Source: a virus. From it: a stretch of 31,998 nucleotides of DNA. Both the position numbers and the translations under genes were made by a program. The stretch lies in the IMG/VR virus record IMGVR_UViG_3300037070_001458, positions 1 through 31,998 of that record, one strand, 5' to 3'. Within the stretch, counting starts at the first letter, position 1; the number at the start of each line of letters is the position of its first letter. The notes under the pieces were generated by a model, which worked only from the letters and a program-made list of their open reading frames with translations, did no database searches and had not been told where the DNA came from. Shown here in pieces: positions 20,769 through 31,998 of this stretch.

Positions 20769-20921
20769 CTACTTCTTCGCTTCCTTCTTGAGGACGCCTG
20801 ACGCCTTCTTGATGGCCTTGCCCGGTGAGTCACCCTGGGCCTCGGCCGAGTCGCGGACGTGCTGCCACTGACGACTCTTCTTCGCCGTGTTGGCCTTCTT
20901 GGTGTGCTCGCTGGCAGGCAT
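20769..20921 (-). CDS. 50-residue Lys-rich basic protein
   Basis: A small gene starting at ATG 20921, with AGGAG ten bases upstream, and ending with TAG at 20769. The product is Lys/Ala-rich with Lys-Lys pairs at both ends (HTKKANTAKKSRQWQ; KAIKKASGVLKKEAKK) and a short acidic centre, consistent with a small nucleic-acid-binding or head-internal protein. Good ribosome site, close spacing to the next gene and codon usage similar to neighbours support it. Family unknown. Confidence 0.65.
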   Translation of the reverse strand: MPASEHTKKANTAKKSRQWQHVRDSAEAQGDSPGKAIKKASGVLKKEAKK

Positions 20922-20941
20922 CAGTGTGATACTCCTGTGCT

Positions 20942-21175
20942 ATGACCACCATCAACTTCAAGGGCTGGAGCAGGCATTTCAAGAAGGACCCGCGAAGTAC
21001 CGAGATGGTGATGATGCCCCGTGACGTATTCGACTTCATCCTGGAGACGAACGAGGCTTACGTCTCTATGGAGGACGAGACAGGCACGCCAACCATCGTG
21101 GCGTGTCAACTGCTCGCCCTTGAGCTGCTCCAGGAGGTGGCCGCTCACAACCGACCTCCGGTGGGGGACATATAG
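20942..21175 (+). CDS. 77-residue orphan gene on the plus strand inside the late minus-strand block
   Basis: The product begins MTTINFKGWSRHFKKD and looks like a real globular protein, with balanced hydrophobic residues: EMVMMPRDVFDFILETNE, an acidic turn, then a helix TIVACQLLALELLQEVA. No ribosome site precedes ATG, but TGT-GATACT eight bases upstream resembles an extended -10, so a leaderless transcript is possible. It starts 20 bases from a minus gene start and its last 31 bases overlap the end of the 318-residue minus gene. Function unknown. Its odd orientation suggests a separately acquired or separately regulated gene. Confidence 0.6.
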   Translation: MTTINFKGWSRHFKKDPRSTEMVMMPRDVFDFILETNEAYVSMEDETGTPTIVACQLLALELLQEVAAHNRPPVGDI

Positions 21176-22101
21176 CGCTGGCCCTTGCGGACAGGCCCGG
21201 AGAACGCCTCACCAGGGTTCTGCTGGCTCATCTTGCGCTCGGGGTGGCCCAGTTCGTAGTTCTTGGCGATGTTCCACAGATACGACTGGGCACCCAGGGG
21301 CTGGCGGAAGGCCGCGAAGCTGCGCCCACCCTTCTGGGCCATCGCCTGACCGGCCATGGCGATGGTGTCTTCGTAGTGCTGGTAGTTGGTCTTCCCCCGG
21401 CTCGCCTGCTTGTAGTAGCCCTTGCCCAAAGCCCGGTATGCCGCTGGGGCCTGCATCGAGTTGTTGGTGAGATCAGCCATCTTGTAGTCGACAGCCAGAT
21501 GGCTCTCCTGATGGGTGGGGTCGAGCAGGCCGTGGAAGAAGGCGTTGGTCTTGGGGTTGTCGTAGCGGGTCATGACCTCTTCGGGGTCAGCCCCACGCAG
21601 CATCGAGTGGGCCTTGAGCAGCATCGGGTCAGAGTTCCCCGACAGGTGGGGAGCCTTCTCGGCCAACATCGCCGCCACCTCGGGGTGGCGGTTGGGCAGG
21701 GAGGGCACGCCCTTCTCACCTCGGGCACGACGGCCCCGCAGAGCGTCGATGCCCCCGGCGTAGGTGCGCTGGATCATCTCCCAGTCGTTGGTGTCCAGCA
21801 CCTGGGACTCACCGATCGAGGGGATGTTGCGCTTCGACCAGTCCTGACCTGGTGAGAGGGCCGCGGCGATGCCGGTCGCCGTCCGCAAGGAGAGATCTCC
21901 CTGGTTGGCCCGCACGGCCTCATGGCCCATCCCATACCACTCTTTGCCCTGGCGGCGCTCTTGAGGGGTGCCCTCCAGGCCCCACTTCGTCAGCCTGGCC
22001 ACGGCTCGGGCCTGGTGACGGGGGTCGTTGATCTGGAACGTCTCCCGCATGGTCGGCATGGCCAAGCCAGAACTTGAGCCGCGTCCTGTCAAGTTCGGCA
22101 T
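21145..22101 (-). CDS. Conserved-type hypothetical protein, head or packaging region
   Basis: In this 318-residue helical protein the N-terminal part has GLEGTPQERRQGKEWYGMGH, then RTATGIAAALSPGQDWSKRN, a pattern I recall from uncharacterised phage and actinobacterial proteins (Ala-x-Ser-Pro...Trp...Asn). Later segments include YDNPKTNAFFHGLLDP, HLAVDYKMADL and YRALGKGYYKQ, with NYQHYEDTIAMAGQAMAQ helices. This looks like an enzyme or DNA-binding fold, but no catalytic set can be named. ATG 22101 has a weak ribosome site; ATG at 22059 (MPTMRETF) is an alternative start. It lies between the terminase and portal genes, where minor head or DNA-handling proteins often lie. Confidence 0.75.
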   Translation of the reverse strand: MPNLTGRGSSSGLAMPTMRETFQINDPRHQARAVARLTKWGLEGTPQERRQGKEWYGMGHEAVRANQGDLSLRTATGIAAALSPGQDWSKRNIPSIGESQVLDTNDWEMIQRTYAGGIDALRGRRARGEKGVPSLPNRHPEVAAMLAEKAPHLSGNSDPMLLKAHSMLRGADPEEVMTRYDNPKTNAFFHGLLDPTHQESHLAVDYKMADLTNNSMQAPAAYRALGKGYYKQASRGKTNYQHYEDTIAMAGQAMAQKGGRSFAAFRQPLGAQSYLWNIAKNYELGHPERKMSQQNPGEAFSGPVRKGQRYMSPTGGRL

Positions 22102-22108
22102 CGGGCGA

Positions 22109-22513
22109 TCACTTGTGCGTCATCCCACGACTGATGTTTTTGGACCGGGTGGTCTTCAACGCCTGGGGCTTGTACAGCTTGGGCCGCAGGTTCTTGGGCA
22201 TCCCCACCGCCTCAAGGTTGTCCTCGACCGCCTTGAGAACGTCGGGCTTGGTGTTCCGCATCTCGTAGCCAGTGTCCGTGTTCCCGCTGGGCCTGATCAG
22301 GAACTTGCCGTTGTCCTCAGGTGGCCTGCCAGCCGGGGCGTTGCCGACCGGCACCGTCGAGGTGGTCACCGCCCCAGCCCCAGGGGTGGGGCTGACCACT
22401 ACGGACGGCTTCGGTGGCTTGGGAGCCTGGTACGGCTTGGCCCCCTCAGCTTGCTTGAGGCGCTGTGGCCGAGTGCCGAAGCCCACCGTGAGGTAGGGCA
22501 CGGCCCTTCGCAT
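22109..22513 (-). CDS. Hypothetical Pro/Ala-rich basic protein
   Basis: The 134-residue product has a Pro/Val/Ala-rich flexible section between residues about 25 and 65 (KPPKPSVVVSPTPGAG). A basic, more ordered C-terminus follows (VLKAVEDNLEAVGMPKNLRPKLYK) and ends in Thr-Thr-Arg-Ser-Lys residues. ATG 22513 is preceded by AGGA and follows the upstream stop by three bases. No family is recognised. The basic character and position between terminase and portal suggest a minor virion or DNA-associated protein. Confidence 0.65.
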   Translation of the reverse strand: MRRAVPYLTVGFGTRPQRLKQAEGAKPYQAPKPPKPSVVVSPTPGAGAVTTSTVPVGNAPAGRPPEDNGKFLIRPSGNTDTGYEMRNTKPDVLKAVEDNLEAVGMPKNLRPKLYKPQALKTTRSKNISRGMTHK

Positions 22514-22516
22514 GGG

Positions 22517-22882
22517 TCAGTCCTGGACCATCGCCGGGTTGATGCGGATCAGCCGACGCTCGGAACCCATCTCCATCTCGAAACTGGAGGGTCCCTGGCC
22601 GATCGATGCCCCGATGACGAAGTCCTGGAGCATGGTGGGGGCCTCGATCCAGGTGGCCGAGCCGACGTGGGCACGCTCACGCATGGTCGTGGCCGGGTCC
22701 TTGATCACCGTGAACGGACGACCACGGCCGTCACCCTGAGTATCACCGTAGGCACCGAGGCCGAAATCATTCGGGATGTCGGTGTCTGTCGCTATTCCCT
22801 CTTCGAAGCGCAACGGTCCGCGCCGCACGTTGTTGACGGCGATGGCTCGCTCATACTGGACTTCCGGGTCTGGGTAACCCAT
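22517..22882 (-). CDS. Hypothetical virion-region protein
   Basis: This 121-residue product starts at ATG 22882, five bases after an excellent AAGGAGG site. The in-frame GTG six bases earlier lies within that site and is unlikely. It has mixed alpha/beta character: YERAIAVNNVRRGPLRFEEG, a Gly-Asp-rich loop near residues 40-55, then RPFTVIKDPATTMRERAHVG and a final ERRLIRINPAMVQD strand. No family is recognised. It is the first gene of the head block after the HNH endonuclease-like gene, separated from it by 62 bases with no gene. Confidence 0.7.
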   Translation of the reverse strand: MGYPDPEVQYERAIAVNNVRRGPLRFEEGIATDTDIPNDFGLGAYGDTQGDGRGRPFTVIKDPATTMRERAHVGSATWIEAPTMLQDFVIGASIGQGPSSFEMEMGSERRLIRINPAMVQD

Positions 22883-22944
22883 GGGCACCTCCTTATCGGG
22901 GTATCAGGGCGAGCTTAGACCACTATCCCCCTCGGAAGTCCGGT

Positions 22945-23487
22945 TCATCGGTAGAACGGGATGCGGCCCCGGAGTGGCTTCCTTCCCGGCAGCAACTGGC
23001 CCTTCCAGTTGTGGGCCTGAAAGCTCTTCGCGCCCTTCGGGGCCGTGACAGCGTCCTCCAACGGCCAGCCTCGCTGGATGCGGTTGCGGAGAGCGTTGTA
23101 GTTGACAGCACAACGTGGGTCCTCGGACCACTCCACCAGTGTCTTGGACTCCCCGAAGATCTCGTAGACCGTGTAGATCTTGCGGATGTTCTTCTTGGCG
23201 GTGGTCCACTCGCAGTTCTCAGGGGAGTAGTCGCCGCTGGAGTCGATGCGGTCAATCCACAACGGGTTCCGGCCAGGCCCGTCGTGGTCGATGTAGCCGT
23301 TGGCATACGACCAGTCACGGAAGGCGGCGTAGTCATCCCACTCCTCACAGACCCGGATGTTCTTGGCTCCGTAGTTCTTGTAGGAGATGTGGTTCGGATC
23401 GTTGCACCTCGCTCGCATGCCTACCCACACCTGGTAGAGCTTCGTGCGCTTCCCCGTGATGTTGTCACCGTGCTTGACCTTGGTCAT
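22945..23487 (-). CDS. HNH homing-endonuclease-like protein next to the terminase gene
   Basis: The 180-residue protein closely fits the free-standing phage HNH/AP2-type family: YQVWVGMRARCNDPNHISYKNYGAKNIRVCEEW (residues 18-50, split here by a loop), then IDRIDSSGDYSPENCEWTTAKKN (78-100). In this family Arg commonly replaces the first His of the HNH triad. A C-terminal helix-turn-helix-like segment follows (KTLVEWSEDPR, LRNRIQRGWPLEDAVTAP). Such proteins cut at a specific site and promote their own spread. It has its own TATCAT-N6-ATG leaderless-type start and no ribosome site, unlike neighbours, which suits an inserted element. Its last residues resemble the terminase C-terminus. Confidence 0.88.
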   Translation of the reverse strand: MTKVKHGDNITGKRTKLYQVWVGMRARCNDPNHISYKNYGAKNIRVCEEWDDYAAFRDWSYANGYIDHDGPGRNPLWIDRIDSSGDYSPENCEWTTAKKNIRKIYTVYEIFGESKTLVEWSEDPRCAVNYNALRNRIQRGWPLEDAVTAPKGAKSFQAHNWKGQLLPGRKPLRGRIPFYR

Positions 23488-23493
23488 TGCACG

Positions 23494-23499
23494 ATGATA
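23494..23499 (-). promoter_or_regulatory. Leaderless-type -10 box (TATCAT) before HNH gene
   Basis: Minus-strand TATCAT lies exactly six bases before ATG 23487, so transcription would begin at the start codon. No Shine-Dalgarno sequence is present. The gap to the terminase stop is only 29 bases. Confidence 0.5.
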
Positions 23500-23516
23500 T
23501 CGTACGTCGCAGTAGC

Positions 23517-25097
23517 CTACCGATAGAACGGTGAATCGATTGACTCCACGATCGGCACCGTCTCCAACATCGAGCAGGCGCAGGCCAGTGCCGCAGAATC
23601 AACGTAGTCGTCGTGGGCCTCACGCTCTTCGGGGGCCTGGATGAGCAGATACTGCCCACGCATGACTTTTTCGGCGTCGACCATCTGCTGGCGGAACCGG
23701 CGCCATACACGGGTACGGCGGGCCTTGGAGTGGCCGGGGTAGACGAGCATCTGGCGCTGGATGAGCTGAATCAGGTGCTTCCAGCGTTCGCTCTGGTTCT
23801 TGGAGTCGCTGGAGAACGGGATCACCTCACAGCGGGACCCCATCAGGCGCTGCATCCGGTCGGCCACCGCACTGCCCATGCCCTGAGCGTCGACTCCGCA
23901 GAAGGCGATGTCGTAGGGGTCGAGGAAGTCCATCATCTGGAAGTACTGCTCCTCCCAGGCTGTGTTACCGATCTCCTGCCAGTTCAGGATTCGGTGTTCT
24001 CGGTATCCGGCGGCGTCGGGGAAGTCCCAGTCGACCCACATGACGGTGACGACGGTGGAGTCTTTGACTCGGGCTGGGTCGATACCAACCACACAGGGCG
24101 TGCGGTGCCATCCTCGGACCAACTGCATTGATGGGTCTGCCAGGTAGTCAAGCTCGTCCTCCGTGACGAGCATGCCTCGTTCCAGCATCCACTTCAAGGC
24201 GTATGACATCTGGAACTCTTCGGAGTCCTCGCCCAGGCGGATCTTCTCCTTGGCGATGAACTTGGCGTAGTTCGCGTTGTACCTCGATACCACCTTGTAG
24301 TCGTACTCAAAGTGGTTCTGACGGGCACGCCGGTTGCTCTGGCGCCGCTTGTTGACGTTGATCGCCTTGTAGAAGTCGCCCTTGTGATACCCAGGGGTGC
24401 CGATCTTGGCGATGGTGCCCGCATAGGCGGCGAGCATCGGGTGGATGCTCTTGCGGATCACCGTGTCGTCGGCGTCCTGACACTCATCGATGACGATGAT
24501 GTGATAGCTGGAGCCTTCGATCTTGGCCCTCGGGTTGGCCGTCTGACGACGGCAGAAGGAGCCACTACGGAGGCGCACGATCTTGGACTTGCCCTCCACC
24601 CGGTCATCGATCTCGGGGTCGAACATGATCTCTTCGGCGGCGTCGCTGGTGAGGCGACTGACGATGCGGCTGAACACGATGTCGCTCTGCTCGTCAGTGG
24701 GGGCGAAGATGCCGATCATCAGGCCCCGCTTGAACCGCTCCATGATGGGGAAGGTCTTGGCCAGCTTGGGGAACAGCACCATGCACCCGGCCAGGGTGGT
24801 GGCCAAGGACTCGGACTTGCCCGCCTGGCGGGCCATCAACGCCGTGATCTCCTCGGCGTCAGCCAGGATCATCGACTCGATGACCCGGTATGCCACGGCC
24901 CGCTGGTAGGGGTACATCGGGAAGCCCGACAGCTCTTCGCAGAACAGCACGATCCGGCTGATCAGGTCATCGAGGAACCCCTGCATCGTGGGGTCGAGAT
25001 CCTGGATCTCGTCTTCCACTACCTCGTCGGGAGAAGGGTGCTCCTCTTCCAGGAGGTCTTCGGGGTCAGGCCCGTAGCCCAGATCCGTGATCGACAT
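23517..25097 (-). CDS. terL: Terminase large subunit
   Basis: This is the 526-residue ATP-driven packaging motor. Walker A is ARQAGKS (89-95) and Walker B IIVIDECQ (200-207), with the catalytic Glu next to Asp. A KIGTPG coupling motif (231-236) follows. The nuclease domain shows VVGIDPARVKDST with Asp340, a second acidic site GVDAQG with Asp403, and HDDYVDSAALA with Asp496/497 and Asp500. The length is normal for the family. The first 40 residues are acidic and variable. ATG 25097 lacks a good ribosome site but follows TGGTATGAC by eight bases, so a near-leaderless transcript is possible. No small-subunit gene was recognised in the window. Confidence 0.96.
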   Translation of the reverse strand: MSITDLGYGPDPEDLLEEEHPSPDEVVEDEIQDLDPTMQGFLDDLISRIVLFCEELSGFPMYPYQRAVAYRVIESMILADAEEITALMARQAGKSESLATTLAGCMVLFPKLAKTFPIMERFKRGLMIGIFAPTDEQSDIVFSRIVSRLTSDAAEEIMFDPEIDDRVEGKSKIVRLRSGSFCRRQTANPRAKIEGSSYHIIVIDECQDADDTVIRKSIHPMLAAYAGTIAKIGTPGYHKGDFYKAINVNKRRQSNRRARQNHFEYDYKVVSRYNANYAKFIAKEKIRLGEDSEEFQMSYALKWMLERGMLVTEDELDYLADPSMQLVRGWHRTPCVVGIDPARVKDSTVVTVMWVDWDFPDAAGYREHRILNWQEIGNTAWEEQYFQMMDFLDPYDIAFCGVDAQGMGSAVADRMQRLMGSRCEVIPFSSDSKNQSERWKHLIQLIQRQMLVYPGHSKARRTRVWRRFRQQMVDAEKVMRGQYLLIQAPEEREAHDDYVDSAALACACSMLETVPIVESIDSPFYR

Positions 25098-25103
25098 GCA
25101 CCA

Positions 25104-25115
25104 CAGTCATACCAC
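25104..25115 (-). promoter_or_regulatory. Possible promoter core before terminase gene
   Basis: Minus-strand GTGGTATGACTG carries an extended -10-like TGG-TATGAC, 6 bases upstream of ATG 25097 counted from the end of the 12-mer. It differs at one base from the element before the scaffold gene at 18345-18356. It overlaps the stop codon of the preceding small gene. Confidence 0.5.
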
Positions 25116-25366
25116 TACGGCGCTTCCTTGCTCCGGTAGTTGGCCCAGTAGGCCGTGCTGATGTTCGTGCAGGCGGTGCCCTTGCACCCCTTCTGACGGC
25201 GGTAGAGGGAGGCGTCCTCGCAGGACGCCGAGTCACGATCGGGGTCGATGCCGCAGACCCCGGCCTCGGAGACGACGATGGGGAGGCTCTTGCGACCGGG
25301 TCGCTTGGCCTCGACGGTGCTCATGCGCTGCTCCAGGGCAGCGACACGCTCTTCCAGGCTGGGCAT
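25115..25366 (-). CDS. Small protein with N-terminal coiled coil and Cys4 cluster
   Basis: The 83-residue product starts at ATG 25366, five bases after GGAG; the GTG six bases earlier would overlap the ribosome site. Residues 1-20 form a short coiled coil (LEERVAALEQRMSTVEA). Then GVCGIDPDRDSASCEDASLY and RRQKGCKGTAC place four cysteines in a probable zinc- or iron-sulfur-binding module (C-x10-C, C-x4-C), followed by an aromatic-basic end. I recall this Cys pattern from uncharacterised actinophage proteins. It sits directly upstream of the terminase. A regulatory or packaging-accessory role is an inference. Confidence 0.75.
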   Translation of the reverse strand: MPSLEERVAALEQRMSTVEAKRPGRKSLPIVVSEAGVCGIDPDRDSASCEDASLYRRQKGCKGTACTNISTAYWANYRSKEAP

Positions 25367-25368
25367 GG

Positions 25369-25623
25369 TCACTCCGGGAGGGCGCCGAGGGGCGGGGTCA
25401 CCTTGAGTTGCCAGGGGACGAGGTCGTAACCGACTCCCGGCAATCGCCCGGATTCATCGACCTCGTCACTGTCCCAGGTCACGTTGTTGCGCTGCCGATA
25501 GGACTCGCGGAGGCCGTCGAGGAGGCTCAGGGCATCGACGGTGTTCGCCGCCGTGTGGCTGCGGACCCGTTCGGTGTCCCTGTACACCTCGATCGTGTAG
25601 TGATCGGTGGTTATATCAGTCAT
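25369..25623 (-). CDS. Small hypothetical protein with leaderless-type start
   Basis: The 84-residue product has a beta-alpha pattern: an HYTIEVYRDTERV strand, TVDALSLLDGLRESYRQRN helix, then an acidic linker and GYDLVPWQLKV near the end. No family is recognised. ATG 25623 has no ribosome site but is preceded by TGG-TATCCT and exactly six bases, so leaderless translation is likely. A TTG six bases earlier is less likely. Its stop overlaps the ribosome site of the Cys-cluster gene, so it probably heads the transcript leading to the terminase. Confidence 0.75.
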   Translation of the reverse strand: MTDITTDHYTIEVYRDTERVRSHTAANTVDALSLLDGLRESYRQRNNVTWDSDEVDESGRLPGVGYDLVPWQLKVTPPLGALPE

Positions 25624-25625
25624 GA

Positions 25626-25648
25626 GCAAAGGATACCATTTCCTTTGC
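25626..25648 (-). promoter_or_regulatory. CAAAGG-N3-TGGTATC element and eight-base inverted repeat
   Basis: Perfect arms GCAAAGGA and TCCTTTGC flank seven bases. On the minus strand the element includes extended -10 TGG-TATCCT at the correct distance for a leaderless ATG 25623. Related copies lie at 26622-26640 and 29899-29922. It could be a promoter with an overlapping operator, and it also follows the stop of the upstream gene. Confidence 0.6.
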
Positions 25649-25899
25649 TAATCCGCAACGCGAGCGTGCTTCCTCCGCAGGGCCTGGCACGACTGGAGGG
25701 TGGTGAGGGCCTCAGTCTCCAGCAGGGCCAAAATCTGTGCCCTGTTGTCCCGTTCCGACCGGTACCGGTCGGCCAGGTGGGTCGAGTTGGCCAGCGCCGT
25801 CTCCATCGCCAGGTAGAGATCCTCGCTCGTCAGCCGGTCCAGCCTCGTCGGCTCCAGAGGGGGAGGGGGCAGTTTGCGCCCCACCAGTCTGAACACCAT
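25648..25899 (-). CDS. Small helical hypothetical protein
   Basis: The 83-residue product begins MVFRLVGRKLPPPPLEP, then has a long helical section (LTSEDLYLAMETALANSTHLADRYRSERDNRAQILALLE, split here by loops) and a basic end. It looks natural in composition. ATG 25899 follows GGAGG with seven bases, an excellent site. The first 188 bases overlap, in another frame, the 3' part of the gene at 25712-26161. Function unknown. The helical, charged character suggests a small binding protein. Confidence 0.75.
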   Translation of the reverse strand: MVFRLVGRKLPPPPLEPTRLDRLTSEDLYLAMETALANSTHLADRYRSERDNRAQILALLETEALTTLQSCQALRRKHARVAD

Positions 25900-26161
25900 G
25901 AGGACGCCTCCATTCGCTGATCTCGTCCACCTGGGCGATGTCACGACGGTACGGGTCCTCGCCCCGGTTGCAGAGGCCCAGGTGGAGGGCTTGACGACCA
26001 AGCCGAAGCCGCATCCCCCACCTGGACCGTCTGAATGGTGGCATATCTTCGACCAGCCAGGCATACGAGATGTACTTGCGGTCCTCAGATAGGACCTCGT
26101 GGTCCATACCCCAGTACACCTCGATACCCAGGTATGGCCCGACCGAATGTACAACGATCAA
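25712..26161 (-). CDS. Hypothetical protein with long out-of-frame overlap; C-terminal part uncertain
   Basis: The 149-residue frame starts at TTG 26161 (TTGA overlap with the KTSC gene); ATG 26107 is a shorter alternative. The first 90 residues look real: HSVGPYLGIEVYWGMDHEVL, YISYAWLVEDMPPFRRSRWG, LHLGLCNRGEDPYRRDIAQV. The remaining 60 residues are Gly/Pro/Asp-rich and overlap the start of the next gene in another frame. They may be translated, or the natural gene may end near 25900 with a frameshift. No stop lies between. No family recognised. Confidence 0.55.
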   Translation of the reverse strand: MIVVHSVGPYLGIEVYWGMDHEVLSEDRKYISYAWLVEDMPPFRRSRWGMRLRLGRQALHLGLCNRGEDPYRRDIAQVDEISEWRRPHGVQTGGAQTAPSPSGADEAGPADERGSLPGDGDGAGQLDPPGRPVPVGTGQQGTDFGPAGD

Positions 26162-26607
26162 GCCCGCGTCCGGCTCGTCAGGCCCCGGCTGATGTTGCTC
26201 GGGGCGTCCACCTCGTCCACCGTCATCACCCGGTAGTCGTAGTCGTTGAGGTCGGTGTTGATGCGTCGGCCCTTGGACACGACTCTGGCGAAGTTCCGGT
26301 ACGTCTCGTAGGGGACTTCCAGGTAGATGTAGCCCCGGTTCTTGTTGTTGCGCCACTGGACCTGGAGGGCCTTGTTGAGATGGTCGTAGCGGTACCGGCT
26401 GACCCGCGTGCTCTGGGGCGTCTCGGCCCACGGTGAGAGGTCGTGCTGGTCGATGTTGTACGCCTCGTCGTGGACGTACGTACCGGCGTGGACCTTCTTC
26501 TTGACCGAGCCGCCCTTGTTGTTCTCAGCGGCGGCGATCGCTTCGGAGATGTTCTGGCGGGAGCGGGCCAAGCCCTTCGCTCCCAAACCGGCTTTACGCT
26601 CTGCCAT
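26158..26607 (-). CDS. KTSC-domain protein
   Basis: This 149-residue protein has a basic N-terminal 60 residues. Residues about 66-122 match the KTSC domain: STRVSRYRYDHLNKALQVQW, GYIYLEVPYETYRNF, and VVSKGRRINTDL, the usual beta-sheet pattern ending in Ser-x-Gly. The domain is small and widespread beside phage and mobile-element genes. Its role is not established (single-strand nucleic-acid or protein binding has been suggested). ATG 26607 is preceded by TAGACT and exactly six bases, a leaderless-type start. The downstream gene overlaps its stop as TTGA. Divergent gene on the other side is at 26641. Confidence 0.8.
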   Translation of the reverse strand: MAERKAGLGAKGLARSRQNISEAIAAAENNKGGSVKKKVHAGTYVHDEAYNIDQHDLSPWAETPQSTRVSRYRYDHLNKALQVQWRNNKNRGYIYLEVPYETYRNFARVVSKGRRINTDLNDYDYRVMTVDEVDAPSNISRGLTSRTRA

Positions 26608-26613
26608 AGCTCC

Positions 26614-26619
26614 AGTCTA
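26614..26619 (-). promoter_or_regulatory. Leaderless-type -10 box (TAGACT) before KTSC gene
   Basis: Minus-strand TAGACT stands exactly six bases before ATG 26607. The GGAGCT between them is too close to the codon to act as a normal ribosome site, which favours transcription starting at the ATG. Confidence 0.5.
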
Positions 26620-26621
26620 CT

Positions 26622-26640
26622 ACAAAGGAACTGGTATCAT
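26622..26640 (+). promoter_or_regulatory. CAAAGG-N3-TGGTATC element with TATCAT box before plus-strand gene
   Basis: The plus strand reads ACAAAGGAACTGGTATCAT, an extended -10 TGG-TATCAT directly abutting ATG 26641, with GTG 26647 exactly six bases away. The CAAAGG half matches the copies at 25626 and 29899. It lies in the 33-base gap between divergent genes. Confidence 0.6.
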
Positions 26641-26919
26641 ATGAATGTGATCTGCAAAGGCGTCGGCATCGGCCTCACCATCAAGCCCGAGAACTACAAG
26701 GCGGGCGTGATCCTCTCCCTCCATGAGGAAGAGGGGGACGACGACGCGGCGAGCTTCATCGTGCTGCCTGCTGACAAGGCCCGTGACATCGCCACCACGA
26801 TGATGGCTCGGGCCATCGAGGCCCAGGCGATGGAGGACGAGCTGGAGGCCGTGCCCCTCGATGACCGGGATGCGGCGATGGACAAGATCATCACCCGCAT
26901 CCACGGTCACCTGAACTAG
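26641..26919 (+). CDS. Small acidic hypothetical protein
   Basis: The 92-residue product is acidic, with strand-like GVGIGLTIKPENYKAGVILSL (broken here), a Glu/Asp-rich turn near residues 29-35, then helices (LPADKARDIATTMMARA, a Glu-rich middle, and AAMDKIITRIHGHLN). No family is recognised. Start choice is open: ATG 26641 has AAAGGA 11 bases upstream, while GTG 26647 fits a leaderless TATCAT-N6 start. It ends 89 bases before the opposing Cys-rich gene, with no clear terminator in that gap. Confidence 0.75.
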   Translation: MNVICKGVGIGLTIKPENYKAGVILSLHEEEGDDDAASFIVLPADKARDIATTMMARAIEAQAMEDELEAVPLDDRDAAMDKIITRIHGHLN

Positions 26920-27008
26920 CCCGCCTGTCGCCCCGTAGACGAGGGAGGAAGAGGCACAAGGGAAAGAACTCCCTGAGGAGAAGACCAAGGCCAGCGGGCA
27001 TCTCTTCC

Positions 27009-27296
27009 TTACGACGAACACTCCTCTTCATGAGCATCGAGATCATCGGCGTCAGCACAGGCCCTGCCGCACCAGATGCAGAGCAGGGCCTCTTTGGCCG
27101 CTTTCTCCAACGCCGCCATCTCGTCGGTGATCTCGGTGATCTGGGCTTTGGTGGTGAGGGTGCCGGTCCACTGCGGGATGACGGTGGCAGTGGTGTTGTA
27201 GGTGATCTGCTGACCCTGGGTGGTACGGGTCAACCCGCAACGGGCGCACTCCATCGCTGACGAGGAGAATGCCGGGACCCACTTGTGGCCCAGCAT
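27009..27296 (-). CDS. Small protein with two Cys clusters, probable zinc binding
   Basis: The 95-residue product starts at ATG 27296, after GGAGG 11 bases upstream and eight bases past the preceding stop. Residues 17-20 (CARC) and the C-terminal CIWCGRACADADDLDAHEEEC segment (73-93) give a C2H2/treble-clef-like set of ligands. Between them lie a Thr/Gln-rich strand region and an acidic helix (ITEITDEMAALEKAAKEA). It is probably a small DNA-binding or protein-binding regulator. No specific family is recognised. It is the last gene of the minus-strand cluster, facing the acidic plus gene tail to tail. Confidence 0.75.
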   Translation of the reverse strand: MLGHKWVPAFSSSAMECARCGLTRTTQGQQITYNTTATVIPQWTGTLTTKAQITEITDEMAALEKAAKEALLCIWCGRACADADDLDAHEEECSS

Positions 27297-27304
27297 CGAG
27301 CAAC

Positions 27305-27718
27305 TCACCTCCGGGCCTGTTTGAACCCACTTCGGAACGCCGAGGCTGCGGAGGCCGTCTTCGGCGCTCGGACCGTGGAGGCCCTGCTGGTAGTGGTTCC
27401 CTTGCTGGGGGCCGGAGTCTTGGAAGAGCTGGCGCTGGTGGGAGAGGCGGCTTTCTTTGCGGAGGATCGCTTCCGTGGCGCGGCGGATCTCTTCAAAGCT
27501 ACGGCTGCGGTGAGGGTCACTACCTGGTGTTTCAGCCACTGGTTCTCCTCCTGCAACTGGTTGACGACTTGAAGATGGTTGACGAAGTACGGGTCGTTCA
27601 TCAGGGTCGCGATGGCCCTGCATGTGGCTTCGAAGACGGCCTTGGCGTGTTCTTGGGGGACCACGCTAGTGACATACTCGGCTATCCGAGCGGCGAGTAT
27701 GTCACCAGGTGTGGGCAT
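27305..27718 (-). CDS. Helical protein with basic Ala/Ser/Lys-rich tail
   Basis: In this 137-residue protein the N-terminal 70 residues are helical (GDILAARIAEYVTSVVPQEHA, broken here, then a Gln/Glu coiled coil HLQVVNQLQEENQWLKH). The C-terminal 60 residues are low-complexity Ser/Ala/Lys/Pro, like histone-type tails (KRSSAKKAASPTSASSSK). This suggests a nucleoid- or nucleic-acid-associated protein. Start ATG 27718 lies in a TGATG overlap with the gene upstream. Charge pattern only, no family match. Confidence 0.72.
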   Translation of the reverse strand: MPTPGDILAARIAEYVTSVVPQEHAKAVFEATCRAIATLMNDPYFVNHLQVVNQLQEENQWLKHQVVTLTAAVALKRSAAPRKRSSAKKAASPTSASSSKTPAPSKGTTTSRASTVRAPKTASAASAFRSGFKQARR

Positions 27719-27855
27719 CAGCCCTCCAGCACGACCCAGCCGTCGTCAGCCACCTCGACGGTGAACTCCTGGGCTTCGGCCAGACCGATCGCCAGACTGA
27801 CGCTGGCGTCAGCAGGCAGGTCACCCAGGGCTGTGATCAGTTCCTCAACGGTCAT
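27718..27855 (-). CDS. 45-residue acidic hypothetical protein
   Basis: The short product reads TVEELITALGDLPADASVSLAI and ends EVADDGWVVLEG, a compact alpha-beta pattern like small proteins with a DUF-type Asp-x-x-Val-x-Leu fold. ATG 27855 follows GAGGT seven to eight bases upstream and overlaps the upstream gene by 11 bases. It ends in a TGATG overlap with the next gene. Function unknown. The composition is clearly coding. Confidence 0.72.
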   Translation of the reverse strand: MTVEELITALGDLPADASVSLAIGLAEAQEFTVEVADDGWVVLEG

Positions 27856-28060
27856 CGGGAACCTCTTCGGGGAGTTGTCCGGGGAGGGCGACCATCTCTC
27901 GGGGGAACCATCCTGCACCGGACCCACCGTAGACCAGGGGATCATCGAAGACCACCTTGTACGACCTCTCCCTGGTGCGGACGAACTTGGTGATCCGACC
28001 GGGGAGGATGGTCTGTCCGAAGTGGACATCCACCCTCATGTCGGGTTCTAACTGGATCAT
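27845..28060 (-). CDS. Small SH3/KOW-like hypothetical protein
   Basis: The 71-residue product is beta-rich (MRVDVHFGQTILPGRITKFV, SYKVVFDDPLVYGG, WFPREMVALP), resembling small SH3-like barrels that bind nucleic acid or protein. ATG 28060 has a GGGGGG ribosome site and overlaps the preceding stop as ATGA. Its acidic end overlaps the next gene. Role unknown. The fold suggestion is from the strand pattern only. Confidence 0.72.
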   Translation of the reverse strand: MIQLEPDMRVDVHFGQTILPGRITKFVRTRERSYKVVFDDPLVYGGSGAGWFPREMVALPGQLPEEVPDDR

Positions 28061-28272
28061 GTTCCCCCCTTGTAGGGTCGATGGCCGACGTGTAAGCAGC
28101 GGCAGACGTGACAGGTGTACATCTCCATGGCCGGGTTCTCGGTCAGGAGTGCCTGGGCCTGCTGGATGGTCAGGGGCTTCTTCGGCAATCCCGCCTTGTT
28201 GTAGTGGGAGCGGTGCTTAAAGCCGATGGGCATGGTAGGTGGTTGGGGCATAACCCCAGCGTACAGGCCCAT
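28057..28272 (-). CDS. Small Cys/His-cluster protein
   Basis: The product is about 71 residues when started at ATG 28272; ATG 28314 (85 residues, overlapping the upstream gene), GTG 28284 or ATG 28251 are alternatives. The middle is basic (GFKHRSHYNKAGLPKKPLT) with a helix IQQAQALLTENPAME. The end YTCHVCRCLHVGHRP holds three Cys and two His within 12 residues, a likely zinc site. No family is recognised. It ends in an ATGA overlap with the SH3-like gene. Start uncertain, gene itself likely real. Confidence 0.65.
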   Translation of the reverse strand: MGLYAGVMPQPPTMPIGFKHRSHYNKAGLPKKPLTIQQAQALLTENPAMEMYTCHVCRCLHVGHRPYKGGT

Positions 28273-28288
28273 TGCTGGTAACACAACC

Positions 28289-28579
28289 TCAGTCTGGGAG
28301 CTTGTGGCCTTCATCAGCCGCGGCCCTGGCCTGGTCCTCGAAATAGTCGGCCACCTTGAGGAGGCCCTTACGGGCCTCCTCGTCGGTGGTGAGGCTGGCG
28401 GCGATGGCGATCATGCTGGCGTAGGTGGCCAGGGCGGGGGAGGCGATCTTGTCCTGGCGCCTGATCACCACAGCGTCCTTGACAACGAGATGTTGGAACC
28501 CTGAGGCGTTGCCCAGGTGCTCCAGGAACTCGTCACGGTGGAACACGATGTACTTGTCGTCACGGATCGGCTCGGTCAT
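28289..28579 (-). CDS. Small alpha-helical hypothetical protein
   Basis: The 96-residue product starts at ATG 28579 in an ATGA overlap, with GAGAGGA upstream. Its N-terminal half is alpha-beta (KYIVFHRDEFLEHLG, HLVVKDAVVIRRQD). Its C-terminal half is helical, with SMIAIAASLTTDEEARKGLL and an acidic YFEDQARAAADEG end. No membrane span is certain. Function unknown; it is part of the tightly packed small-gene cluster. Confidence 0.75.
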   Translation of the reverse strand: MTEPIRDDKYIVFHRDEFLEHLGNASGFQHLVVKDAVVIRRQDKIASPALATYASMIAIAASLTTDEEARKGLLKVADYFEDQARAAADEGHKLPD

Positions 28580-28767
28580 GATCGGGGGTCCTCTCGTTCG
28601 AAGTCGGCAGGCATGGGACGGGGCTGCCACATTGCCACGTAGTCCTTGGCCCGGTCGACGTATCGACGGATGGCCCGGATCTGTTCCAGGCTGGCAGCCT
28701 GGATGTCATCGATAGGGGCGTTGATGTCCACCAGTTGGGTGACGGGCAATTGGGGCATGAGCTTCAC
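28576..28767 (-). CDS. Small hypothetical protein
   Basis: The 63-residue product contains IDDIQAASLEQIRAIRRYVD, a clear helix, and a Trp-Gln-Pro-Arg-Pro-rich end. Start GTG 28767 has GGGGAG ten bases upstream. ATG 28758 is a shorter choice and has TACTGT seven bases before it, close to leaderless geometry. It follows the 368-residue gene by six bases and ends in an ATGA overlap. Function unknown. Confidence 0.7.
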   Translation of the reverse strand: MKLMPQLPVTQLVDINAPIDDIQAASLEQIRAIRRYVDRAKDYVAMWQPRPMPADFEREDPRS

Positions 28768-28773
28768 AGTATC

Positions 28774-29880
28774 TCAGCTCCCCTGCGTCTCGTTGATCAG
28801 ATCACGCAGGGCCTGGACGTAGCCCTCGGCCTTGGAGGCCCGCTCGTTGGCCGCATCCAGCGCGTCCTGCATGGTGTCACGGACGTGGTCACGCTCATCG
28901 ATGTAGCCGTCGACCTGGCGCTGGAGGATGTCGACCTGCTCACGCAGCACCTTGCCACGGCCACGGTCGACCAGGGCGGCGATCTTGTCGAGGATCTCCT
29001 CGGTGGACAGAGGCTCGGCCGGTACCGGGGTATCGGAGGGCAGGGCCTCGATGCGGTGGTCGATGATCCACTGGGCCAGCCAGTCCGGGTCCAGGGCGAT
29101 TCCCTCCGAGAAGGCGGCACCGAAGGCACCGTCGATCTCACGGGCCAGGTTGCGGATGCGGGTGGCACGCCGGGGGTTGGTCACCCACGTCGGGTCGATG
29201 CCGTCCACCTCGGCCTGGGGCTGGATGCCCTCACCGTGACGGTGGGCGGGGCCGTAGTGAGCGGCCACCGAACGGGGAGAGTCGTCGGTGAAGTCGCACC
29301 CCTCCCAGCGGCAGGCGTAGTCGGTGGTGTCGTTGGACCAGACACGCTCCATCACGGCCTCGGAGGGGTACGTCTCGCCCTTGGCGTTACGGTGGGCGCT
29401 CCACGGCTCCTCCTTGGTGACGCGGACCTTGCGGCGCGTCGGCGCCGCTGCCACTGGAACCGACTCCGGCTCATGGTTCCCGCCACTGATGGGAGCCGGA
29501 GTCGATTCCACTGGGAGCGCCGAAGCTACAGCCTCCCGAAGTACCCGAGCACGGTCCGGATCAACCTTGAAGTTGGGGTGGGCGATGATCTGCTCGACGG
29601 CGCTGTGGAGGTCGGACTTGGGGTCGCGGTGGCGTACCAGGGTGTTGACCCGGCTGCGGAACACCTTGGCGTTGAGGGCCGTGTTGGTGGGGATGTCCAC
29701 CTTGATCCCGTCGTGGGAGATGAAGTGGAACGCCTTGGCCCGCTGCCAGTGCCAGCCCAGCCCTACGGCCACGCCGATCAGGATCTTGGCGTCGAGATAG
29801 CGCATGCTGCGGATCTCGGCCATGACCTCCTCGCCAACGAGGTTCTCGTCAAACAGGATCTCATTGAGGTCGTCGTTCAT
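28774..29880 (-). CDS. Multi-domain protein with C2H2-type zinc finger and coiled coil, possible regulator
   Basis: The protein is 368 residues. Residues about 35-85 (LIGVAVGLGWHWQRAKAFHFISHDGIKVDIP, broken by a turn) resemble a small alpha-beta domain of HicA/double-strand-RNA-binding type, but the match is weak. Residues 130-185 are a Pro/Ala linker and basic strand. Residues 190-213 form C-x4-C-x12-H-x4-H, a C2H2-like zinc finger (Cys190, Cys195, His208, His213). Residues 290-360 form a long coiled coil. It heads the minus-strand cluster, with promoter motifs just upstream and TAGTAT-N6-ATG. DNA binding and regulation are inferred from the zinc finger and position. Confidence 0.8.
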   Translation of the reverse strand: MNDDLNEILFDENLVGEEVMAEIRSMRYLDAKILIGVAVGLGWHWQRAKAFHFISHDGIKVDIPTNTALNAKVFRSRVNTLVRHRDPKSDLHSAVEQIIAHPNFKVDPDRARVLREAVASALPVESTPAPISGGNHEPESVPVAAAPTRRKVRVTKEEPWSAHRNAKGETYPSEAVMERVWSNDTTDYACRWEGCDFTDDSPRSVAAHYGPAHRHGEGIQPQAEVDGIDPTWVTNPRRATRIRNLAREIDGAFGAAFSEGIALDPDWLAQWIIDHRIEALPSDTPVPAEPLSTEEILDKIAALVDRGRGKVLREQVDILQRQVDGYIDERDHVRDTMQDALDAANERASKAEGYVQALRDLINETQGS

Positions 29881-29886
29881 GTTGAC

Positions 29887-29922
29887 ATACTACCACACTG
29901 CAAGAGATACCACACCCTTTGC
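29887..29922 (-). promoter_or_regulatory. Two promoter-like boxes upstream of the zinc-finger gene
   Basis: Minus strand holds CAAAGG-GTG-TGGTATCTC (within 29899-29922) and then GTGTGG-TAGTAT (29887-29892 is the TAGTAT box) exactly six bases before ATG 29880. The two GTGTGGTA repeats are 21 bases apart. The upstream copy matches elements at 25626 and 26622. On the plus strand a separate TGCTAGGGT (29933-29941) may serve the divergent secreted protein gene. Confidence 0.55.
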
Positions 29923-29973
29923 AGGTGATTTCTGCTAGGGTTCCGACTTTCACAACACAGGTAGGAGGCGGAG

Positions 29974-31440
29974 ATGCGGGTGGCCAAGTTCACCGCAGCG
30001 CTAGCAACAGCACTCACGTTGGGAGTCGTCATCGCGACTGCTGTTGGGGCTGAGGGTGGCGGGAGCTATGGCACCACCACGACCACGCATCGGGCCTACA
30101 CGACGACGACAGGGGCGGCGACATCAACAACGAGCGGTACCTCCACATCTACAACCACACCTACTACGACATCGTCACCCACGTCTTCCACGACTATGTC
30201 GACATCCCCCTCGACAACTACGACGACCGAGGTGGGGACCACGACGGTGGTGGGGACGACACCCCAAGGGGTGACGACTACCACCCTCCCAGGTACCACG
30301 ACTACGACCTCGACCACTATTCCGACCACCACGACGACGGAGGCGCCGAAGAAGGTCTTCGTCTGCAAGTTCGTGGGGACGCCGGGGGTTGACGAGCGGC
30401 TCCAGACCGGCCAGAACCCGATCTCGGTCAGCGTCAACGCGATCCCCAACTGGTCAGGGACCATCGGGGAGTTCTTCGCTGACGCCCAGGGCCGCTCATT
30501 GGTCATCGCCTTCGATGTGGGCCAGCCTGAGCCGAGCGTGTCGGAGTGCCTGCCGCAAACGGGTACAACGACGACATCGACTACATCGACTACCGCTCCC
30601 TCTACGACGACCTCCACCGTGCCGCCTACAAGCACGTCTACGACAGGGGTGACGACATCAACGAGCACGACAACGACGACATGCCCGGACTGCGTCCCGG
30701 ACACCCAGGCCCCGAGCACGACCACGACTGTCCCGCCGTCGACCACTACCACCTCCGCACCACCCACGACGACGACGGCACCCACTACGAGTACGTCGAC
30801 CACCGTCGCCCCAACTACGGTCCCCGAGTCCTCAACGACGACGACCGTCGCACCATCCACCACGTCTACGACTACGACGACAACTACCCCTACAACGACG
30901 ACATCGGGGCCAAGCACGTCCACGTCGAGCACGTCGTCCACGACCCCCTCTACGACAACTACTTCGTCATCGACATCGACAACGACGAGCACCCTGCCTG
31001 AGACGTTCACGTTCGGGGCGGCGGGCACGGTCTGCGTGCGTGAGGTGCCAGTGATCCGGATCACGTTCCAGACCCCCGGCTTCCCCAGTCTGGCCGGTGT
31101 CACTGGTACTCTCACCATGCGTGACATCAACGGAAATCTGGTTTCGACCCAACCTCTGGTCTACCAACCCGGAGCAACCGTGGACGTTCTCTATCCGGGC
31201 ACCTCGGTCAATCCCGATGGTTCGATTGACGACGTACCGGGATGGATTCTCACTGACGACGGCTTCTGGATTCAAGACCCGAGTGATGCTTTCCTCCGAG
31301 ACGGCATCTTCCTGACCTTTGAGGTGAACCCGACAGCGGGGCCGGTGCTCGTCACGTATCCGCCCGAGAGTTCGGCCTGCGCCAACCCAGACGGTCCGTT
31401 CCCGCCGATCGGCCCCGGAATCCTCCCCGCCACGGCATGA
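29974..31440 (+). CDS. Secreted Thr-rich mucin-like protein
   Basis: This 488-residue product has a signal peptide (MRVAKF, hydrophobic 7-24, cleavage near Ala26). Residues 34-124 and 197-340 are Thr/Ser/Pro low complexity, with LPQTG at 193-197. Globular part one (127-192) begins VFVCKFVGTPGVDERLQTGQNP, a motif I recall from actinobacterial secreted proteins. Globular part two (343-488) is a Cys-containing beta domain and ends LPATA, sortase-like but with no membrane anchor after it. The strong ribosome site AGGAGG is five bases before ATG. Likely exported, possibly glycosylated, and acting at the host surface, perhaps in exclusion or biofilm. Function inferred only. Confidence 0.8.
   Translation: MRVAKFTAALATALTLGVVIATAVGAEGGGSYGTTTTTHRAYTTTTGAATSTTSGTSTSTTTPTTTSSPTSSTTMSTSPSTTTTTEVGTTTVVGTTPQGVTTTTLPGTTTTTSTTIPTTTTTEAPKKVFVCKFVGTPGVDERLQTGQNPISVSVNAIPNWSGTIGEFFADAQGRSLVIAFDVGQPEPSVSECLPQTGTTTTSTTSTTAPSTTTSTVPPTSTSTTGVTTSTSTTTTTCPDCVPDTQAPSTTTTVPPSTTTTSAPPTTTTAPTTSTSTTVAPTTVPESSTTTTVAPSTTSTTTTTTTPTTTTSGPSTSTSSTSSTTPSTTTTSSSTSTTTSTLPETFTFGAAGTVCVREVPVIRITFQTPGFPSLAGVTGTLTMRDINGNLVSTQPLVYQPGATVDVLYPGTSVNPDGSIDDVPGWILTDDGFWIQDPSDAFLRDGIFLTFEVNPTAGPVLVTYPPESSACANPDGPFPPIGPGILPATA
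30073..30996 (+). repeat. ACN-rich low-complexity DNA coding the Thr blocks
   Basis: The stretch (about 30073-30345 and 30562-30996, around a normal-complexity gap) is dominated by ACC, ACG and ACT codons with Ser and Pro. Because of the triplet bias, other frames on both strands also stay open (a Val-rich minus frame and an Asp/His-rich plus frame). Confidence 0.8.
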
Positions 31441-31598
31441 GCGACCCGCTGGTGTGTGACCAGTGCGGTCACCGGATGGAGGACCATGACGTGGAGGACC
31501 GCGAGGCCCCCTCACACGGCCGCATACATGGATCGTTCGACGGTGAGACATGGTTGGGCCTGCTGTGCCCAGAAGACGACGACCTGTTACCCGCCTAA
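31437..31598 (+). CDS. 53-residue acidic protein with Cys/His cluster
   Basis: The product starts MSDPLVCDQCGHRMEDHDVE. CDQC plus the following His residues (H12, H17) and a later Cys (C44) give a possible zinc site; the rest is acidic. ATG 31437 overlaps the secreted gene stop as ATGA, so it is probably coupled to it. TAA ends at 31598, overlapping the opposite-strand small gene by four bases. Too short for a family call; the Cys spacing and coupling support it. Confidence 0.65.
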   Translation: MSDPLVCDQCGHRMEDHDVEDREAPSHGRIHGSFDGETWLGLLCPEDDDLLPA

Positions 31599-31693
31599 CG
31601 GCGGAACCACTCCCACAACACGTCGATGAGGGCCAGACCGGCCAGGATGGTGACGGCCAGCACGCGGGCGCCGTCCGTTCCGAGGAAGTCCAT
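31595..31693 (-). CDS. 32-residue single-span membrane peptide
   Basis: Minus-strand ATG 31693 is preceded by GGAG five bases upstream and ends with TAG at 31595. The product is MDFLGTDGARV, then a hydrophobic segment LAVTILAGLALIDVLW, then EWFRR, the charge pattern of a single-span membrane peptide with its C-terminus inside. It overlaps the end of the plus gene by four bases. It could be a small holin-like, spanin-like or membrane-regulatory peptide, but nothing nearby shows lysis genes. It is short, so confidence rests on ribosome site and hydrophobic pattern. Confidence 0.5.
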   Translation of the reverse strand: MDFLGTDGARVLAVTILAGLALIDVLWEWFRR

Positions 31694-31728
31694 GAGTGCT
31701 CCAGTACGTATCACAACAAGTCGCTCAG

Positions 31729-31740
31729 AGAAGATACCAT
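31729..31740. promoter_or_regulatory. Divergent promoter region with overlapping boxes
   Basis: On the plus strand TACCAT (31735-31740) stands exactly six bases before ATG 31747. On the minus strand the same site reads TGG-TATCTT (31729-31737), about 36 bases before the small membrane gene start at 31693. Opposed -10-like boxes in one short gap suggest shared control. Confidence 0.45.
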
Positions 31741-31746
31741 GTCACC

Positions 31747-31941
31747 ATGAACCTCTCTGAGATGATCGACTCAGTGATCGACACGGACGGCGACGGCCGA
31801 GCCGTCGTCAAGATGCTGATCTCCTACGGACACCTGCCACCAGACGCCGACGACCGCCCCGCGGGCCTGACGGCCCGCCAGTGCGCCCTGGCCGAACAGT
31901 TCACCACCAAGTTCCTCGCCTTGGAGAAGGAGGGGTTGTGA
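31747..31941 (+). CDS. 64-residue hypothetical protein
   Basis: The acidic helical product starts MNLSEMIDSVIDTDGDGRAV and ends CALAEQFTTKFLALEKEGL. No family is recognised. ATG 31747 has a leaderless-type TACCAT-N6 spacing and only a weak ribosome site. It ends in a GTGA overlap with a further gene that runs off the right edge, so the two form an operon. Confidence 0.7.
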   Translation: MNLSEMIDSVIDTDGDGRAVVKMLISYGHLPPDADDRPAGLTARQCALAEQFTTKFLALEKEGL

Positions 31942-31998
31942 AGTACCTGGTCGGCTACATCCTCCAGGGCAGCGTGATCGTGGAGGCCGAGAACGAGG
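31938..31998 (+). CDS. Start of a gene cut by the right window edge
   Basis: GTG at 31938 overlaps the preceding stop (GTGA) and follows AAGGAGG. The 20 visible residues (MKYLVGYILQGSVIVEAENE) show a beta-strand start and no signal peptide. Product unknown. Confidence 0.65.
   Translation, partial: MKYLVGYILQGSVIVEAENE

Follow-up and report, generated by a model that had tools for sequence, protein, structure and literature searches.

Leaderless genes of the TA-led type, in which a TANNNT hexamer stands close before the start codon, are well described in Actinobacteria and Deinococcus-Thermus (PMC3160421, PMC12340547), and the average leaderless share in Actinobacteria is given as 19.2% (PMC3160421). 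For leaderless translation in mycobacteria, it is reported to be necessary and sufficient that the mRNA begins with ATG or GTG (PMC4633059). For phages, three such promoters (PL1/PR2, PL2), two of them divergent, are predicted in the cluster O mycobacteriophages (PMC4351075), and a putative promoter predicting a leaderless transcript is described for gene 90 of Mycobacteriophage Adephagia (PMC11373665). Among the matches listed in the open-licence literature we found individual predicted genes of this sort and no genome-wide test of leaderless starts in phages. Because of these earlier predictions the kind is already known; here we add a family-wide demonstration, conservation at one locus and a covarying palindrome that is a candidate operator. 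The DNA analysed was IMG/VR virus record IMGVR_UViG_3300037070_001458 (31,998 bases, 63.6% guanine plus cytosine (GC); hereafter the window). A first-pass annotation of the window had named six starts as a leaderless set, and direct inspection confirmed TANNNT exactly six bases before ATG or GTG (RTG) at all six.

We defined d as the number of bases between a TANNNT hexamer and an RTG start, and called genes with a caller trained on codon usage and blind to promoters and Shine-Dalgarno (SD) sites. Starts were counted in the window, in 32.7 kb of the same phage past the window's right end (contig G001, 100% identical to the window over 20769-31998) and in 15 other related IMG/VR contigs collected via their terminase, from a phage group of at least 80 IMG/VR loci. 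Expected counts were taken from the TANNNT rate at internal RTG codons. In the 15 relatives, 62 of 1207 genes had the hexamer at d=6 and 43 at d=7, where 0.96 and 1.46 were expected (binomial P = 2e-88 for d=6). The hexamer stood at d=8 in 13 genes and at d=9 in 14; each spacing from d=2 to d=5 had a single gene, and each from d=10 to d=16 had 0-4 (expected ~1-2). Counts climbed again from d ~27 upward, as expected of leadered promoters. Upon removal of identical starts and of contig G011, a near-copy of G019, 1158 genes gave 61 at d=6 and 36 at d=7. Counting every in-frame RTG candidate (5555) gave 87 and 53, compared to 1-16 at other spacings. The share of leaderless-type genes was 2.3-17.9% per contig. 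About one gene in twelve of the phage family has a promoter positioned for an mRNA that would start at the start codon. If transcription starts 6-7 bases past the -10 element and the codon is needed at the 5' end, an edge is expected between d=5 and d=6. This lower limit at d=6 is in our judgement the strongest argument for leaderless transcripts, as a start codon any closer would be lost from the RNA.

Within the window, 11 of the 2207 RTG codons counted over the two strands had the d=6 geometry, compared to 0-4 matches at each other spacing from 0 to 20. The 11 comprised the six named starts, 28251(-), 23492(-) (overlapping the 23487 site) and three plus-strand cases (1889, 6137 and 16612) that lie antisense within minus-strand genes. 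By the motif-blind caller, 5 of 40 window genes had d=6 (P = 2e-10, control rate ~0.96 per 1207); the start at 26647 fell outside these five because the caller picked ATG 26641. The geometry was enriched at gene starts over random RTG codons in the window and in the 15 relatives, and the family-wide statistics strongly support the annotated leaderless set and its two classes of start, leaderless and SD. The annotation had also stated that none of the six has a normally spaced ribosome site, which a crude pattern test upheld for the five motif-blind cases, with a GGAG two bases from the ATG at 26607. Its statement that structural genes have strong ribosome sites was borne out in part: of the 26 genes called in the window with an end before 22900, 10 passed the same test.

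We compared promoter features in 1293 called genes, 1268 of them with 60 bases upstream, setting 110 starts at d=6 or 7 against 1128 starts without a hexamer at d=5-9; the 30 starts whose only hexamer lay at d=5, 8 or 9 were excluded. The 110 starts showed an extended -10 element (T at -15, G at -14). TTG at a 17-bp spacer was present in 16 of 102 distinct starts, compared to 0-3 at other spacers, hence the -35 element is weak in most. A gene on the other strand lay upstream of 30 of the 110 starts and of 56 of the 1128. C at -1 was found at 80 of the 110 and at 465 of the 1128. Transcription usually starts at a purine preceded by a pyrimidine, and C at -1 with a purine at +1 is consistent with an mRNA 5' end on the start codon. 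SD-like sequence was present at 8% of the 110 starts compared to 52% of the 1128, with an SD core within -10..-1 in 4 of 110, a depletion that counts for less than its size because an SD site hardly fits where the -10 hexamer sits and the loss is partly forced. The starts share with TA-led leaderless genes a first T of TANNNT ~12 bases before the start, above chance, and few SD sites; with sigma-70/SigA promoters they share a -35 element at ~17 bp and an extended -10. These data suggest that the d=6-7 starts are most likely SigA-type promoters yielding leaderless mRNAs.

The start at 25623 was the most conserved. It belongs to the 84-residue gene at 25369 (Table 1); one small gene (25115-25372) follows, and the terminase lies downstream of the same promoter. 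When in-frame RTG starts were searched for the geometry, it was kept in 28 of 32 distinct copies, the window included; L144, L013 and L015 were without it and L034 was truncated. By the motif-blind caller it was present in 9 of 12 members of the 25369 family. TTG stood at spacer 17 in 25 of the 28 promoters, compared to 0-1 at spacers 14-16 and 18-20. The product is predicted to adopt a beta-beta-alpha-beta-beta fold (predicted local distance difference test (pLDDT) 85.6). It had no PHROG match, and the family (30 members) gave sub-threshold Pfam matches only. A Foldseek search of PDB returned no match at E <= 0.001 for this model or for that of the 28774 product described below. In BFVD two proteins matched the 25369 model, of which one is uncharacterised and the other unnamed, and the best VIA-align match was 2mcf (Z 5.1, root-mean-square deviation (rmsd) 2.6, 70 residues aligned), in the uninformative range.

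When the 28 promoters of the 25369 family with the leaderless geometry were aligned by their hexamers, inverted repeats appeared whose 5-7-base centre holds the extended -10. The arms covary: they read AGCAAAGGA/TCCTTTGCT in the window, GTCAAAGA/TCTTTGAC in G007, GCCAAACA/TGTTTGGC in G008 and CTGCAAACTAT/ATAGTTTGCAG in L040. At least 6 of 8 arm pairs were present in 20 of the 28 (best of seven registers, 7-base centre). With the register fixed on the same axis and a 5-base centre, pairing was possible at 159 of 252 positions, compared to 116.5 +/- 6.1 (maximum 139) in 5000 right-arm swaps between phages; the phages are related, which inflates this test, so the difference is not a clean probability. 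A covarying inverted repeat over promoter elements, with kinship not removed, is the pattern of an operator for a dimeric regulator, and we propose that role for the palindrome as a candidate. That every leaderless promoter carries such a palindrome was rejected: 11 of 102 distinct starts reached 6 or more of the 8 pairs (expected ~3.8), namely eight 25369-family promoters, one 28774-family promoter and two others.

We then scanned ten genomes, each with its own arms, using an 18-position and a 20-position score. By the 18-position score, the best non-seed site in the window's own phage (~65 kb) was the second palindrome at 29899, followed by 26621 and by 20917, the last away from leaderless-type starts. 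By the 20-position score, 8 of the 60 sites that were the six best non-seed sites of each genome lay at a leaderless-type start, compared to 44 of 4000 random positions (P = 3e-7). The eight came from the window's own phage (1), G007 (2), G014 (3), G008 (1) and G004 (1), and several tied in score with sites elsewhere. G014 was the clear case: its best two sites (17 and 16 of 20) and its third (14) were all at leaderless-type starts. At the 28774 orthologue of G012 stood a 13/18 site, a score that other sites equalled, and an operator-like site was also present at the leadered 28774 orthologue of G007. The best site of G013 (17/20) preceded a frame of 59 codons, but its d=8 falls outside the d=5-7 rule. 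Beyond the seed, no site in the ten genomes matched all arm positions, and few reached at least 14 of 20. The over-representation of similar-arm sites at other leaderless starts hints at a small regulon, with a recurrence that is plain in G014 and faint or lacking in several of the other genomes.

Table 1. Features of the window at and around the leaderless-type starts.
Feature	Coordinates	Strand	Match
HNH endonuclease gene, 180 residues; ATG 23487; -10 TATCAT 23499-23494	22945..23487	-	PHROG 3377, E 2.4e-40
Terminase large subunit	23517..25097	-	PHROG 2, Pfam Terminase_6C
84-residue protein, first gene of run 25369 -> 25115 -> terminase	25369..25623	-	
Palindrome AGCAAAGGA-aatggta-TCCTTTGCT around extended -10; proposed operator	25625..25649	-	
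-10 hexamer TATCCT, six bases 5' of ATG 25623	25630..25635	-	
-35 element TTGCGG, 17 bp upstream of -10	25653..25658	-	
KTSC-domain protein, 149 residues; ATG 26607; -10 TAGACT 26619-26614	26158..26607	-	
Weak operator-like site TACAAAGGAACTGGTATCATATGAA over plus-strand gene start, beside divergent 26607 promoter	26621..26645	+	12/18 arm matches to 25625 site
90-residue protein; GTG 26647; -10 TATCAT 26635-26640; divergent from 26607	26647..26919	+	
64-residue frame, extra d=6 start TACGCT-GGGGTT-ATG 28251	28057..28251	-	
60-residue frame, extra d=7 candidate TACTGT-GAAGCTC-ATG 28758	28576..28758	-	
368-residue protein; ATG 29880; -10 TAGTAT 29892-29887; C2H2-like finger, C-terminal coiled coil	28774..29880	-	
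Second palindrome TGCAAAGGGTGTGGTATCTCTTGCA just upstream of 29880 -10	29899..29923	-	13/18 arm matches to 25625 site
-10 hexamer TACCAT, six bases 5' of ATG 31747	31735..31740	+	
64-residue gene, ATG 31747	31747..31941	+	

With good confidence, we favour a single explanation in which host-type leaderless promoters operate in these phages and a dimeric regulator controls a subset of them. A host-type SigA/sigma-70-like polymerase would start RNA on the first base of the start codon; the first cistron would be translated from the leaderless mRNA. Many other phage genes have SD sites. The subset, foremost the promoter of the run 25369 -> 25115 -> terminase, would be controlled by a dimeric DNA-binding protein, probably phage-encoded. 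By binding the palindrome that overlaps the extended -10, this protein would compete with polymerase and gate the promoter, and regulator and site would drift together from phage to phage. We put forward more tentatively, and with some doubt, that the phages carry a switch of their own. A small dimeric regulator, possibly the 25369 product autoregulating, might act on the leaderless promoters of three sets of genes, namely the run that leads into terminase, the gene for the C2H2-finger protein and two further G014 genes, with regulator and site having diverged in each phage as in temperate-phage immunity groups. If so, loss of the leader would let the operator abut the start codon, and repression and translation start would fall within ~40 bp.

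Several observations weigh against the gated leaderless promoters that we favour. Streptomyces phage BRock, one of six named phages whose terminases come closest (45.7-47.1% identity), showed no peak (5 of 139 genes at d=5-7, 2.9 expected). In the remaining 32.7 kb of the window's own phage, 46 genes gave one start each at d=5, 6 and 8; at 1/46 for d=6, the window is richer than the remainder of the phage. Among the six members of the 28774 family, the geometry was present in the window, G012 and G014 (GTG, d=5), and the orthologues in G007 and G010 have an SD leader, with none seen in G008; the mode of start therefore changes between orthologues. By the 20-position score, site 29899 (13) shares its score with three sites located away from leaderless starts, 52 of the 60 top sites lie away from leaderless-type starts by the d=5-7 rule, and G003, G009, G010, G012 and G013 have no such site among their six. 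Pfam and PHROG scans of the 25369 and 28774 families gave no DNA-binding protein.

The promoters could be real and the genes near-leaderless or mostly transcribed from upstream, the close spacing reflecting compact intergenic regions. We observed that 34 of the 110 starts lie less than 30 bases from a same-strand upstream gene, so read-through transcripts are likely, and the smaller excess at d=8-9 (13 and 14) fits this account too. However, compactness alone leaves a 6-7 peak with background counts at 2-5 and 10-16 unexplained, as it does the depletion of SD sites and the enrichment of C at -1, and we consider this reading improbable. Next to no weight falls on the TANNNT excess being an effect of chance or composition in AT-rich upstream DNA, or being produced by the way starts were called. 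The motif is loosely defined, and DNA before genes may be AT-richer, but counts at spacings 10-16 stayed at background, and the spacing profile with the internal-RTG controls ruled out composition; start-calling bias was ruled out as well, since starts were called blind to the motif and the peak persisted with all candidate starts.

The palindrome at 25625-25649 and its relatives might be an RNA hairpin, serving translational control or processing of a read-through mRNA, instead of a DNA operator. Covarying arms around a short centre suit a hairpin as well as a dimer site, and the co-directional upstream gene 26158 could provide the read-through RNA. However, a promoter inside the palindrome would start RNA after nearly the whole element, no T run follows it, and similar palindromes stand at unlinked leaderless promoters of one genome, for example G014; to the hairpin we assign a small but real chance. 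The first-pass annotation had further read the leaderless starts as a phage strategy for conditions that favour leaderless mRNAs. Leaderless translation is described as comparably robust in mycobacteria (PMC4633059) and as well sustained in stress (PMC8485053), but the leaderless share per contig (2.3-17.9%) is no higher than the reported actinobacterial average of 19.2% (PMC3160421), so a phage simply matching its host is a sufficient reading, and the chance that such a strategy is at work appears slim. As a whole, the interpretation in that annotation is partly supported.

The geometry was not confined to the 25369 family. By the blind caller it was present in 8 of 15 members of the KTSC family, 4 of 9 of the 26641 family and 3 of 16 of the terminase family, and other genes with it include a helicase and a topoisomerase-like protein in G013. 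In contig G014, L119:10119 (+) reads TATCTT-TGAGGC-ATG, is open for 213 codons and has its leaderless-type start within a palindrome; judged by eye, its product may resemble a sliding clamp, and residues 2-127 of the product had no PHROG match. In the 28774 family, C190, C195, H208 and H213 of the C2H2-like finger are invariant in six members, and Pfam and PHROG scans of these six gave nothing reliable. The model of the 28774 product is of poor quality (pLDDT 64). Its residues 29-98 align with 1whz (Z 5.7, rmsd 3.0, 63 aligned) and with 5yrz_B, a toxin-antitoxin chain (Z 5.5, rmsd 2.1, 54 aligned), both in the uninformative Z range. We take both structures to be HicA-type; HicA was not listed in the Pfam scan of the family. 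The product is unlikely to be a general regulator, because 6 of 22 records, the majority of these being fragments, contained a match and neither of the 107-110 kb contigs G013 and G015 did.

For the plus-strand gene divergent from 26607, relatives' proteins begin at the residue equivalent to GTG 26647 (VICKGVGIG in the window, MLCKGVGVG in L136, MICNGVGVG in L144), and homologues in L096 and L028 are a few residues longer. Because several relatives' proteins begin there, GTG 26647 is more likely the start, and ATG 26641 was set aside. The frame starting at 28251 has a plausible gene start, and its sole homologue in another phage (L081) shares the geometry, within a similar palindrome. The geometry of the 28758 candidate was absent from its seven matches in other contigs, and the product of the 31747 gene had no homologue in the loci searched. 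The HNH gene lies directly downstream of the terminase and had one homologue in the loci searched (L014), with similar start geometry; it may be a mobile gene bringing its own minimal promoter. Between 26158 and 25623, a minus-strand frame at 25648-26154, uncalled by the gene caller, matched 30 frames in the loci, counting the window and duplicate loci, which makes it probable that the frame contains at least part of a genuine gene. A plus-strand open reading frame at 29974-31440 (488 residues) has an AGGAGG ribosome site before its ATG and a Thr/Ser-rich low-complexity tract at 30069-30990, and similar DNA occurs in several relatives. At the left end of the window (1-900, minus strand) we read by eye collagen-like Gly-Pro-rich repeats, which occur in some phage tail fibres.

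The 105 of 1207 called starts at d=6-7 would seem unsupported to a gene caller that expects SD sites. The spacing test offers a sequence-only route to proposing transcript starts in uncultured phages. The covarying palindrome over the -10 of some promoters goes beyond what the first-pass annotation had seen, and hints at an unrecognised regulator near the terminase of this phage group.

Among known phages, we applied the count to a small control set: BRock (100 of 112.5 kb), Giles (50 of 53.7 kb), Bxb1 (50 of 50.6 kb), phiC31, lambda and the Pseudomonas phage D3112 (64% GC). At d=5-7, Giles had the hexamer before 4 of its 65 genes, where 0.06 was expected. Bxb1 gave 1 of 69 (0.09 expected). 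Among the 46 genes of phiC31, a single start had d=5 and d=6-7 was empty. Lambda had one gene of 43 at d=6-7, cI, and D3112 none of 52; with 0.81 expected in lambda (d=5-7) and 0.08 in D3112 (d=6-7), single matches or zeros there mean little alone. Of 14 more distant IMG/VR loci, some near-copies of one another, L051-L054 had 3-4 starts at d=6 in 15-24 genes and the other ten had 0-2. A GTDB genome scan for proviruses that might identify the host gave 101 pattern matches and no relative.

We take lambda cI to be the textbook leaderless phage gene. It resembles the genes described here in its leaderless-type start and differs in being the single repressor gene of a temperate phage; here, several genes per genome have such starts, and a recognised repressor was absent among the scanned products. 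Mycobacteriophage Giles is positive in the same geometry test and belongs to a different phage family. The cluster O promoters were predicted one by one, whereas the present test is statistical and family-wide. The 17-bp palindromes reported there number 34 in Corndog and lie mostly away from the predicted promoters (PMC4351075); in the present family the palindromes are few and promoter-bound, and tens of identical dispersed copies were not found. Adephagia gene 90 is a single gene, discussed under a HicA/B-like toxin-antitoxin system (PMC11373665). The closest likeness is to the TA-led genes of Actinobacteria and Deinococcus-Thermus as described (PMC3160421, PMC12340547): the first T stands ~12 bases before the start, and the high-GC pattern has uninformative middle bases. 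Those genes are cellular, whereas the starts reported here belong to an uncultured phage family in which some sites carry a palindrome over the -10.

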